DNA of 64,000 nt from Ignavibacteria bacterium. GTDB lineage: Bacteria; Bacteroidota; Ignavibacteria; Tepidaquicellales; OLB5. Made by a program: the position numbers and the translations under genes. The notes below the pieces were generated by a model. That model was not told the DNA's origin. It saw only the letters and a list, made by a program, of their open reading frames with translations, and ran no database searches. Each line of letters starts with the position of its first letter. Within the stretch, counting starts at the first letter, position 1. This document shows, in pieces, positions 58,225 to 61,820 of the stretch. The stretch is taken from NCBI GenBank assembly GCA_017303675.1, contig JAFLBX010000001.1, forward strand, positions 1,437,970-1,501,969, read 5' to 3'.

Positions 58225-60597
58225 TCAAAACTCAACTCTTATTCCTGAATTAAAATTGCGGTTAGGCGCCTGGGTTCTTTCAAGCTCCTGGTAAGATTCA
58301 TTTAACACATTGTTTACTGCAAAAAATATCGTTGCATTGCTGAAGAGCTTTTTGGTAAGCTTCATATCCATAAGAAAATATGCTTTAGGCTCTTCATATT
58401 TATAAAACAGGTCTTCTTCAACATCGCTTACATATTTTCCGGTTATATTGAATGTAAAATCAAAATAACTCAGGTCTGTATGAAAATTCAAAATATGTTT
58501 AGGCTTATAAGGCAGGTATTCATCTTTTCTGTTAACTGAAAGGTCTTTGGCATCAATTAAGCTGTAATTGAAACCGAATGAGTACCCGAGGTCTTTTTTC
58601 AGTAATTTAAGTGAGCTTGAATAATCTATAAGGAATTCAAGACCTCTAATCTGCGCTTTTGCTATATTCTGAACCTGGAAAGGACCGTAAATTCCGCCGC
58701 CTACATTTACATACTGTATCAGGTTATCGTATTCATTAATATATGCTGAAATATCCAGTGTAAACCGTTTTTCATACTGCTTGCGGAAACCAAGCTCTAT
58801 AGATACCATTTCTTCAGGCTTTAGATCGGGATTAAAAATGAAATCAAATCCGCCGAATAATTCTTTTTTAAAATACAGCTCCGCTATTGAAGGAGCGCGA
58901 AACGCCCTGCCTACAAGAAACCTGAATGAAACATTTTTGAAAATTTCGCCATTTGTAACCGGTGAATACAAAAATGAAAGCTTGGGGCTTGCCTGGAGGA
59001 ACTGATTCATGCCGACAAACTTGTTATAATCCAGCCTGATGCCTACTGTTGTTGAAAGTATGCTGTTACCTTCTGGATCTTCTATGATCTTATGCTGATC
59101 CTGCGCAAAAACAGCAAAATTGTTCATTTGCTGGTTACCGTATAATATAGCTTCCGGATCTGATTTTACTACGTTCCACTGAATATCCGTTCCTGCAATA
59201 AAATAATTTTTCTTTGAAAACTGCAGGTCGAATTGTGATATATTCCCGAAATTATATGAGGTTATATAAGTGTTAAACCCTTTTGAGGGATCCTGAGCGA
59301 ATAAAATTGTGACCGGATTCTTTGGATTATAAAATGATACGCTGTTAAGCTTGTAGTAATAGAACCTGGATGTATATTTTGTGTTCTTTCCGGGAATTGC
59401 AGTATAAAAAGCATCGATACTCTGTGTTTCTTTATCAATTTTATCGCCAATGTAATAATCAGCTACCCTGTACGGCATTGAATAACCGCCCGGATCTTTG
59501 CGCCAGTAATGAGGGTAGTCTCCTTTGGATTTTGTATATTGAAGAGTAATTTCAAGATCACGGTTATTAATTACATCATACATTATTTTGGCAAGACCGC
59601 TGTAAAAATTATAACCGGTCTGCATTGCATGGCCGTCATTCTGCTTATAATTAAAATTCACCATGTAAGCAAGCTTGCGGTATGTATTGCTGTGAAGCAG
59701 GTCAAACCCTGAAAATGACCTTAAACCGTTCGTATACTTAAGGCTGTCATTGAGCTTTTCATAAAATCCGAAATTAGCGTTAATACTTGTAAATGATTTA
59801 TATGTCGGCTTTTTGGTAATAACATTTACAACACCGCCTATTGCCGATGAGCCGTATAAAGATGAAAACGCTCCTTTAACCACTTCGGTGCGCTCAATAA
59901 CGGAAACCGGGATCAATGACCATAATGCTCCTTTTGAATCACCGGTCAGTGACGGCCTGCCGTCAAGCAGCAGAAGAACGCGGTTTCCTATCCCGCCGCC
60001 GGCAACATCACTTGAGCCTCTTATGGATAAACTTTGTACGTTTATTCCGCTGGTCTTAAAGATAGTTACACCCTGAACATCGCTTAATACATCATCAAAT
60101 GTCAGCGGGTTGCGGTTTTTAATATCATCAGATGAAACAATTGAAATTGATGAAGGTGTTTGCTTTAATGTAAGCTCTGTTTTTGTAGCTGTTACATTTA
60201 TCTTGTCTGTTTCAATGTTTACAGGTGTAAGGAAGATATTGATATTTTTAATTTCATTTGCGCTGATGGTAATATCTGTCAGCTCTTCTTTTTCGTATCC
60301 AAGCCTGGTTGTTGAGATCTTATATATTCCCGCAGGTACACTTTTGAACTCAAAGTTACCGATAAGGTCACTGCTTGTTTCAGCTTTGAATGACCCGGAA
60401 CCGTCATTTGATTCAAGCTTTATTTTTGTATAGCTTACAAGACCGTCATTGGTCAGGTCAATTACCTTACCGGTAATTTTGGCAGCATACTCTTCAGCGT
60501 AACAAAGGTTAAATGAAATTAAAATAAAGCACAGCACTTTGCTTATTTTAAGCAAAGTGCTGTTTGAAAAATCATATTTGTGTGAAAAGAGTTTCAT
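58225..60597 (-). CDS. TonB-dependent outer-membrane receptor
   Basis: Outer-membrane active transporter. It has 790 residues: signal peptide to about 34 (NLCYA), a carboxypeptidase-regulatory-like beta-sandwich (about 38-115, typical of FCB receptors), plug domain about 130-240 (VQSLSIRGSS..., LLLLDGRPS, SSLYGSSAIGGVVNVITKK), then a 22-strand barrel ending in Phe. The substrate cannot be read; iron-siderophore, cobalamin or haem are candidates. Its ATG overlaps the preceding lipoprotein stop (TAATG), so the two are translationally coupled. Confidence 0.93.
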   Translation of the reverse strand: MKLFSHKYDFSNSTLLKISKVLCFILISFNLCYAEEYAAKITGKVIDLTNDGLVSYTKIKLESNDGSGSFKAETSSDLIGNFEFKSVPAGIYKISTTRLGYEKEELTDITISANEIKNINIFLTPVNIETDKINVTATKTELTLKQTPSSISIVSSDDIKNRNPLTFDDVLSDVQGVTIFKTSGINVQSLSIRGSSDVAGGGIGNRVLLLLDGRPSLTGDSKGALWSLIPVSVIERTEVVKGAFSSLYGSSAIGGVVNVITKKPTYKSFTSINANFGFYEKLNDSLKYTNGLRSFSGFDLLHSNTYRKLAYMVNFNYKQNDGHAMQTGYNFYSGLAKIMYDVINNRDLEITLQYTKSKGDYPHYWRKDPGGYSMPYRVADYYIGDKIDKETQSIDAFYTAIPGKNTKYTSRFYYYKLNSVSFYNPKNPVTILFAQDPSKGFNTYITSYNFGNISQFDLQFSKKNYFIAGTDIQWNVVKSDPEAILYGNQQMNNFAVFAQDQHKIIEDPEGNSILSTTVGIRLDYNKFVGMNQFLQASPKLSFLYSPVTNGEIFKNVSFRFLVGRAFRAPSIAELYFKKELFGGFDFIFNPDLKPEEMVSIELGFRKQYEKRFTLDISAYINEYDNLIQYVNVGGGIYGPFQVQNIAKAQIRGLEFLIDYSSSLKLLKKDLGYSFGFNYSLIDAKDLSVNRKDEYLPYKPKHILNFHTDLSYFDFTFNITGKYVSDVEEDLFYKYEEPKAYFLMDMKLTKKLFSNATIFFAVNNVLNESYQELERTQAPNRNFNSGIRVEF

Positions 60598-61097
60598 TAA
60601 AAGATTTTATTAGTCGTATCTGCCCAGCTTAAGAAATTAATATTACCAACTCCTGCATTGTTTGTTATAGTTGCTTTTAGGGTTGGTGAAAATAAGCATG
60701 ACATAGAATGTAAAGTATCGCATCCATATATACCCATTATTGGACTTTGTCCCCCGGACATTTTTCTGAAACCAACTGAAATTACATAGTTTCCGTCAGT
60801 TAAACCAACCAGTTTATAATTATATGCAGATTGACCTGCAACTACACTAATAGTATCATAAGCAGATGGACCTGCCATTGGAGGCCAGCCTGATTCCGGA
60901 TATGCTGAAATTAAATATGAACCTGAATCTATGAAACCTGTTTCAACGAATGTTACTGTTCCATTAACAGAATTTGCATCATAAGTAGGAGTTGTGTTGT
61001 TGTTTGTTGTTGTATCGTCACCGCAGCTGTTAATAATAATACCCACAAAAGCCACAATAACAAATAATCCCAAATGTTTTAATAATGTCTTTTTCAT
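60597..61097 (-). CDS. Small lipoprotein paired with the TonB receptor
   Basis: 166 residues. Lipoprotein signal ending IINSC at Cys25, then an asparagine/threonine-rich linker (TTTNNNTTP) and a compact beta-rich domain with no named family known to me. The TAATG junction with the receptor gene suggests it is a surface or periplasmic partner, perhaps ligand capture. The minus-strand start follows a tandem inverted-repeat region (61158-61193). Confidence 0.7.
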   Translation of the reverse strand: MKKTLLKHLGLFVIVAFVGIIINSCGDDTTTNNNTTPTYDANSVNGTVTFVETGFIDSGSYLISAYPESGWPPMAGPSAYDTISVVAGQSAYNYKLVGLTDGNYVISVGFRKMSGGQSPIMGIYGCDTLHSMSCLFSPTLKATITNNAGVGNINFLSWADTTNKIF

Positions 61098-61361
61098 TTA
61101 AATTTATTATTGATTTTGAAAATTAGTTAATTGTAAATCTTGATACAAAATTAAATATAGATGTCATCTAAAAATATGACTTATGTCATAAGTGAATAAG
61201 ATTTTGGTCAGTTTGTATAAATTATTGAAATCAAATAAATTAGATGTAAAAATTTCCGGTCGATTCATAAAAATTTTTCAAACCTTCACTTTTTCTATGA
61301 AAAAAAAATAGATTTGGTGAGCTGGTTTTCTATTACCTATTTCTTTAAATAATTATTCGCT
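61098..61361. other. 264-base intergenic region upstream of the receptor unit
   Basis: The longest gap in the window. It holds a possible -7 box (TAATTTTG, minus strand, 61146-61153), two tandem inverted repeats (61158-61170 and 61175-61193), and AT-rich sequence with no further ORF, riboswitch fold or tRNA that I can see. No clear terminator is visible for the upstream monooxygenase gene. Confidence 0.6.
61146..61193 (-). promoter_or_regulatory. Promoter with two tandem operator-like inverted repeats (receptor unit)
   Basis: A -7-like TAATTTTG is at 61146-61153. Just upstream are TAGATG-T-CATCTA (61158-61170) and ACTTATG-T-CATAAGT (61179-61193), both centred on ATGTCAT with centres 22 bases apart. 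The second also fits TATGAC-N4-GTCATA (61175-61190), the half-site layout of Crp/Fnr-type regulators. No TTG is at the -33 position. The regulator is not in the window. Confidence 0.5.
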
Positions 61362-61691
61362 TTACCTGGCTATTACTTCATAGGTTTTAAAGCTAGAATT
61401 CATAGGGGGTTCTTCGCCTTTTTCTTTGGCAATTTTTATATCTTCAAATCCGCGTTTATGTCCTTCAATAAATTCAGGTGATTTGGTCCAGTTTTTGAAC
61501 GTTTCTTCACTATCCCAGTGACTTACTATTAAATAATTATCGCTGCTGTCCTGCGGCTTTAAAACCTCCATATACTTAAATCCCGGCATACGGTCAATAG
61601 CTCCGGCTCTTGTTGCAAAAAGTTCTTCAAATCTGGGTTTATAATGATCCTTACAGCTGATGTAATTAATTGCTACAAAGTTTTTTTCCAT
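61362..61691 (-). CDS. Antibiotic-biosynthesis-monooxygenase fold protein, IsdG/HmoA-like
   Basis: Small dimeric ferredoxin-like protein, 109 residues from ATG 61691. It resembles haem-degrading monooxygenases: an early Asn (VAINYISC), MPGFKYMEVL, SHWDSEETFKNW and a His in EGHKRGF match the Asn/Trp/His positions of IsdG-type enzymes. Haem degradation is therefore plausible, but other ABM-fold enzymes share this shape. A longer ATG at 61727 would overlap the -7 box and is rejected. Preceded by two IscR-like operator sites. Confidence 0.75.
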   Translation of the reverse strand: MEKNFVAINYISCKDHYKPRFEELFATRAGAIDRMPGFKYMEVLKPQDSSDNYLIVSHWDSEETFKNWTKSPEFIEGHKRGFEDIKIAKEKGEEPPMNSSFKTYEVIAR

Positions 61692-61724: not shown

Positions 61725-61777
61725 CAAACATAATAAATAATATCGGACTAATCAAGTCTAATTAGACTAAAATAGTC
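61725..61777 (-). promoter_or_regulatory. Promoter with two tandem Rrf2/IscR-type operators (monooxygenase)
   Basis: Minus strand: TTG (61753-61755), exactly 20 bases, then perfect TATGTTTG (61725-61732). Two sites with the GACT-N5-AGTC layout overlap or flank it: GACTAATCAAGTC (61746-61758), which covers the -33 TTG, and GACTAAAATAGTC (61765-61777), 19 bases apart centre to centre. The second is part of TTAGACTAAAATAGTCTAA and closely matches the core of type 1 IscR sites. Placement over the -33 fits repression. Confidence 0.65.
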
Positions 61778-61795
61778 TAATATTATCAAGTATAT

Positions 61796-61820
61796 AAAAA
61801 AAGCCGGTAAACCGGCTTTT
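61796..61820 (-). terminator. Intrinsic terminator of the M16 peptidase gene
   Basis: Minus strand: AAAAGCCGGT pairs with ACCGGCTTTT around a short AA-containing loop, followed by a run of T, 18 bases after the M16 stop. A standard strong terminator. Confidence 0.9.

Follow-up and report, generated by a model that had tools for sequence, protein, structure and literature searches.

Iron-sulfur (Fe-S) proteins that control iron genes instead of Fur are known from alphaproteobacteria (PMC5863699, PMC4618611). RirA of Rhizobium, an Rrf2-family Fe-S protein that replaces Fur, represses uptake at sufficient iron (PMC5863699), and the IscR of Rhodobacter sphaeroides represses iron genes via a 19-bp palindrome, the Iron-Rhodo-box, which overlaps the promoter (PMC4618611). 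E. coli IscR leaves its type 1 sites when the Fe-S supply falls (PMC12594620), and in Yersinia IscR acts directly at the hmu haem-uptake genes alongside Fur (PMC5827684). Furthermore, Fur and IscR were named in other genomes of the same reactor as ours (PMC8510549), one Rrf2 gene near nos genes was noted in Melioribacter (PMC3534657), and Caulobacter IscR is the subject of a separate study (PMC11475020). Within the literature searched, whose coverage left most subscription journals outside, no description of iron or haem genes under Rrf2/IscR control was found for Ignavibacteria.

Here, we analyzed a stretch of 64,000 nt from an Ignavibacteria genome (the window), in which an earlier note had recognized two palindromic sites over the promoter of a haem-monooxygenase-like gene. 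Comparison with related genomes makes it likely that an Rrf2-family protein, referred to as R1, would repress this haem operon as long as the cell has ample Fe-S clusters, and that it has replaced Fur in this role. Rrf2 proteins in Fur's place (RirA, Rhodobacteraceae IscR) and IscR at the haem-uptake genes of Yersinia are already known, while novelty lies in the lineage, in the exchange of one box for the other at orthologous promoters, and in the lack of an R1 self-site within the window's own family (f1; the sister family is termed f2).

Promoter architecture and controlled unit

The haem operon and its promoter region comprise the following features.

58225..60597, minus strand: TonB-dependent receptor (PF00593, PF07715; synteny)
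60597..61097, minus strand: lipoprotein-like gene, following the ABM gene in f1 and part of f2
61362..61691, minus strand: haem-monooxygenase-like (ABM) gene, 109 aa (PF03992, 61.3 bits, cut-off 23.1)
61725..61732, minus strand: -7 element TATGTTTG, read from the sequence; most f1 promoters have TAnnTTTG at the corresponding position
61746..61758, minus strand: predicted proximal R1 operator, GACTTGATTAGTC gene-wise, GACTAATCAAGTC on the plus strand; overlaps the -33 TTG
61753..61755, minus strand: -33 element TTG inside the proximal site, from the sequence and the consensus in PMC6847099
61765..61777, minus strand: predicted distal R1 operator, GACTATTTTAGTC gene-wise, GACTAAAATAGTC in the other reading; 19 nt upstream of the proximal site
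61800..61819, no strand assigned: GC-rich hairpin AAAGCCGGT-AA-ACCGGCTTT with T on each strand after it, read from the sequence

Inspection of the sequence located both GACT-N5-AGTC sites where the earlier note had placed them, spaced 19 nt start to start, with the overlap of the -33 element and the -7 box TATGTTTG at a distance of 20 nt from the TTG on the minus strand of the gene. In these respects (TTG, 20 nt, TATGTTTG) the haem-gene promoter agrees with the Bacteroidetes-type -33/-7 consensus TTTG/TAnnTTTG (PMC6847099). The hairpin at 61800-61819 probably acts as a terminator between an M16 peptidase gene and the operator.

The resemblance of the controlled gene to haem-degrading enzymes was corroborated by its PF03992 match, by PDB matches that include HmoB, MhuD (Rv3592) and IsdG/IsdI, and by the residues N9, W68 and H78, which were the same in all 41 homologous rows (duplicates counted). 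Asn-Trp-His forms the catalytic triad of IsdG-type haem monooxygenases. The protein thus shares the ABM family and the aligned triad residues with IsdG, HmoA, HmoB and MhuD, but differs from them in scoring below every NCBIfam haem-oxygenase cut-off, the best being HmuQ with 49.3 vs 130; haem is its presumed substrate. The top NCBIfam match of the TonB receptor was TonB-hemin (TIGR01785), at 185.7 bits below the cut-off of 316.85, and the lipoprotein-like gene had no Pfam or NCBIfam match.

The order ABM gene, lipoprotein-like gene and TonB receptor on one strand recurs in relatives from both families, and the lipoprotein-like gene probably shares a transcription unit with the ABM gene. The unit under operator control probably extends to the downstream TonB receptor, although the gap of 264 nt between the ABM and lipoprotein-like genes holds a palindrome, TATGACTTATGTCATA, at 61175-61190, so that the receptor may have a promoter of its own. 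The same CRP/FNR-like palindrome was also seen in G010 and G008, and one similar to TATGACTTATGTCATA precedes a PD40 gene after spoT in L221.

Conservation of the predicted operator sites

A search of 148 related genomes yielded the ABM gene in 27 of them, and close matches among named genomes were mostly Ignavibacteria MAGs. The proximal box was present in all 14 f1 promoters of ABM orthologs and in none of the 11 from f2, whereas the distal box occurred as an exact GACT-N5-AGTC in 8 of the 14 f1 promoters, every time 19 nt from the proximal one. The distal site (61765-61777), which had been ranked as the better of the two, is therefore the less conserved (8/14 vs 14/14). Its reading GACTAAAATAGTC fits the core of type 1 IscR sites. 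At ABM orthologs outside f1 and f2 (G067, G083 and the named loci L126, L128 and L129), neither this GACT box nor the Fur-type box described below for f2 was detected.

Whether such sites could arise by chance was assessed from their frequency. The window held two GACT-N5-AGTC matches vs a shuffle mean of 0.32, a count of two being reached in 3 of 100 shuffles. Across the genome (3.65 Mb, 2 contigs), no over-representation was found (32 sites vs 163 for the reversed pattern), and a stricter form of the motif likewise showed no excess in 13 f1 genomes, our own included (41 rows vs 81 for the control). Of the two observations that the earlier note named as speaking against its reading, a motif no commoner than by chance was thus made, and the genome-wide argument was dropped, as the counts do not exceed those of control patterns; the case for the sites consequently rests on conservation, which rescues them. 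This conservation is local, with 1.82 bits per base at the proximal site vs 0.48 at -60 to -21 in the 14 f1 promoters. Moreover, collapsing the 41 rows over both strands left 33 distinct strict sites in the 13 f1 genomes, 28 of which fall at three recurring loci, namely the haem gene (15), a DUF6662/TonB locus (10) and a position after spoT (3; G000, G002 and G004). The remaining five lie elsewhere; four were inspected, G010:C167 being left out.

These results bear on the explanation that the sites are chance or structural palindromes without a regulator. While the genome-wide counts would fit this, presence in 14/14 promoters amid poorly conserved flanks, the spacing of 19 nt in 8/8 tandem cases and the clustering of 28/33 strict sites at three loci make it hardly credible.

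Among other motif sites of the own genome, one lies within a coding region (C1:547913) and another in the spacer that separates a RidA-type gene from an aminotransferase gene (C1:418211). Pairs of GACTTCAAAAGTC- and GACTTTTGAAGTC-like sites, 65-76 nt apart, were seen at C1:575301-575391, C1:583137-583231 and C2:1513658-1513738; the GACTTCAAAAGTC family, encountered among the sites with one or two mismatches, looks like unrelated repeats.

A Fur-type box in the sister family

Instead of the GACT box, a palindrome near TTATTTAGACTNAGTYTAAATAA was found in 9 of the 11 ABM promoters of f2, matching at least 19 of 23 positions, a score equalled in at most 1 of 200 shuffles; the exceptions, G025 and G022, score only 16 and 18. 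One f1 promoter, L039, also scores 19 of 23, elsewhere in the promoter (1/200 shuffles as high), and the ABM promoter of L124, from a MAG labelled Saprospiraceae, scores 20 of 23. Within one Fur subfamily, 19 of 21 genes have the same palindrome either ahead of fur or directly behind it, and the other two fur loci were without it; it was found at none of nine other FUR-family genes. FeoB-like genes adjoin fur in the nine loci that were opened of these 21, in most cases with a FeoA-like gene between, which was confirmed by Pfam in G022. A FeoB motif search had returned only 5 of the 21 loci, the motif being too strict, as reading of the nine loci showed. A TonB receptor gene of G022 has the palindrome upstream as well. 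Sitting at fur-feoAB and at iron genes, the f2 palindrome can be regarded as a Fur box, and iron-related control of the haem gene, as suggested in the earlier note, agrees with its presence at the orthologous operon.

No FUR-family gene was found in the own genome, which is listed as 100% complete. FUR-family genes occur in 27 of 29 f2 genomes vs 1 of 15 in f1, and this single f1 member (G002) is distant from the fur-feoAB subfamily (33 bits), which was found in 0/15 f1 genomes, a count that could partly reflect missing data since several f1 drafts are incomplete.

A second target shows the same exchange. The ten strict sites of the DUF6662/TonB locus lie at one syntenic spot, occupied by a DUF6662 outer-membrane gene in G000, G005, G010 and G012, by a TonB receptor in G003 and G013 (Pfam for G003 only), and by neither in G002. 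R1 boxes precede the DUF6662 gene in 4/4 f1 cases, and a Fur-type box was recognized by eye in 4 of 6 readable f2 upstream regions, L081 (G043) being left out as the locus is cut.

Candidate regulators

Profile matching assigned three regulators of the relevant families to the own genome, two Rrf2 genes (R1 and R2) and one DtxR-type gene, so that the Rrf2-family genes on which the earlier note had made its reading depend do exist. The R1 gene (134 aa, with C93, C102 and C108 as presumed cluster ligands) lies at C1:2022211. Directly downstream, in the own genome as in G031, is a class-V aminotransferase gene (PF00266, 1e-84), whose sequence and position lead us to regard it as a cysteine desulfurase gene. 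Of the 25 R1-type genes in f2, 24 have GACT-N5-AGTC in the 150 nt ahead of them, mostly at 23 to 50 nt and with a consensus near ATASGACTATATTAGTCCNAT; the motif is absent upstream of 20 other f2 Rrf2 genes (0/20). This links the motif to Rrf2 genes, leaves an Rrf2-type operator as the best-supported identity of the tandem sites, and allows the regulator to be named as R1. In f1, the motif was not found before R1 (0/13) or R2 (0/13), so that for the own genome the link is made by homology only: f1 R1 proteins form a single clade (100/100) nested in the R1 group (support 94/93), the recognition helix is NIPYDLLSKILQKLK-like in both families, and three Cys of the effector region are conserved in 38/38 R1 proteins.

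With regard to the IscR label, Rrf2 membership holds, as R1 exceeds the cut-offs of PF02082 (109.1 vs 30 bits) and TIGR00738 (101.3 vs 73.3). The narrower designation does not, since R1 stays below the IscR equivalog cut-offs of TIGR02010 (67.6 vs 207.55) and NF008110 (42.7 vs 275); by the NCBIfam test it is IscR-like rather than IscR. No other specific NCBIfam subfamily matched R1 above its cut-off either, the RirA equivalog included (51.1 vs 193 bits).

The second Rrf2 protein, R2, was considered as an alternative owner of the box. Its gene closes the suf operon, which makes Fe-S clusters, its own-genome copy has three Cys in the effector region, and R2 was encountered in f1 alone, the family whose ABM gene bears the box. 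However, all ten f1 suf promoters read share a different, strictly kept element, AATCTTGACTNNNTTGTAYAGAT (in the own C1 at L067 8073-8095), the probable operator of R2, and none of them carries GACT-N5-AGTC. As the recognition helix of R2 also differs, and since in f2, which showed no R2-type gene, the box is associated with R1 genes, binding by R2 instead of R1 appears improbable, and R2 was rejected as box owner.

The DtxR-type gene was rejected as well:

L066 about 1695-1735 (own C1:687 kb): MntR-like gene of the DtxR family, whose own promoter holds TTTAGGCATACCTAAA, with a gene for a metal-binding lipoprotein close by

A metal-dependent DtxR/MntR-type repressor acting on a 19-bp palindrome could draw on the presence of this gene and on the length of TTAGACTAAAATAGTCTAA, which is that of a DtxR box. 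Yet TTTAGGCATACCTAAA is built on a different half-site, the top NCBIfam match of the protein is MntR, a metal-binding-protein gene adjoins it, and it is at R1 genes that the GACT box recurs, which renders this assignment highly improbable. With R2 and DtxR-type promoters carrying other elements and the box standing at f2 R1 genes, R1 is the best candidate regulator of the haem operon.

A different question is which signal R1 would sense. Like NsrR or RsrR, it might bind the sites in response to nitric oxide, oxygen or redox state, with haem turnover responding. Other three-Cys Rrf2 proteins reportedly sense NO or redox, R1 fits no specific NCBIfam subfamily above cut-off, and the gene after the DUF6662 target encodes a c-type cytochrome. 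We nevertheless regard this as rather unlikely, as the targets share the fur-feoAB box in f2 and R1 adjoins the putative cysteine desulfurase gene, both being expected for a regulator of iron or Fe-S supply.

Proposed mechanism and comparison with known systems

Under control by R1 through Fe-S supply, cluster-bound R1 dimers would, as long as Fe-S clusters abound, occupy the -33 region and the site just upstream, roughly two helical turns from each other, and exclude RNA polymerase; that R1 would act as a repressor is suggested by the proximal site covering the -33 element. Upon a drop in iron or Fe-S supply, R1 would lose its cluster and leave the DNA, a cluster dependence proposed by analogy with what is reported for the type 1 sites of E. 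coli IscR (PMC12594620) and for RirA (PMC5863699). The derepressed ABM-lipoprotein-TonB unit would then be transcribed, and haem would enter via the TonB receptor and be opened by the ABM enzyme. In f2, the same unit would be under Fur; f1 would have lost that Fur, its targets gaining R1 boxes. The order, Fur first and R1 later, we infer from f2 and from the further locus L124.

In comparison with described systems, R1 shares with RirA the Rrf2 family, three conserved Cys and a proposed role in Fur's place (PMC5863699), and differs in its score below the RirA model cut-off. As in Rhodobacter, whose master iron regulator is likewise not Fur, a promoter-overlapping palindrome of 19 bp is paired with an Rrf2-family protein (PMC4618611), but the phylum is another, Rhodobacteraceae IscR has one Cys vs three in R1, and here the haem operon tops the list of targets found. 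The adjoining putative iscS-type gene and, in f2, the type 1-like site before R1 recall E. coli IscR (PMC12594620, PMC4055776); in f1, in contrast, this self-site is lost, the box stands at haem genes, and R1 scores under the IscR equivalog cut-off. At the Yersinia hmu genes, IscR acts together with Fur, positively and via type II motifs (PMC5827684), whereas here the box types alternate between families.

The GACT-N5-AGTC box itself was found at three recurring loci of f1. We take it to resemble the IscR type 1 site and not the IRO box of RirA.

A broader proposal, which we hold to be about as likely as not, is that one whole family within the Ignavibacteria swapped its master iron regulator: Fur would have been lost, and an IscR-like Fe-S sensor, no longer tied to autoregulation, would have taken charge of the promoters of the haem operon, the DUF6662 outer-membrane gene and the TonB receptors, one box for another. 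This would have happened independently of the cases of RirA and Rhodobacter IscR. If true, this independent Fur-to-IscR-type case would allow study of how a regulon changes hands, and would test whether Fe-S proteins are a general fallback after Fur loss. In addition, a predicted iron/haem regulon is offered for uncultured Ignavibacteria.

Further elements near the DUF6662 gene

In the f2 loci L132 (G020:C139) and L081, the DUF6662 gene lies amid CusA-type efflux and heavy-metal-domain genes, so that the protein may concern metals other than iron. Upstream of the DUF6662 gene, a leader GGACAGGCTGA...TCAGCCTGTCC with two inner hairpins (L076 about 1414-1485, own C1) is conserved in four f1 genomes. 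It had no match in Rfam and is possibly an undescribed riboswitch-like element; a diverged copy of this leader was also seen in G002, which there lacks the DUF6662 gene.
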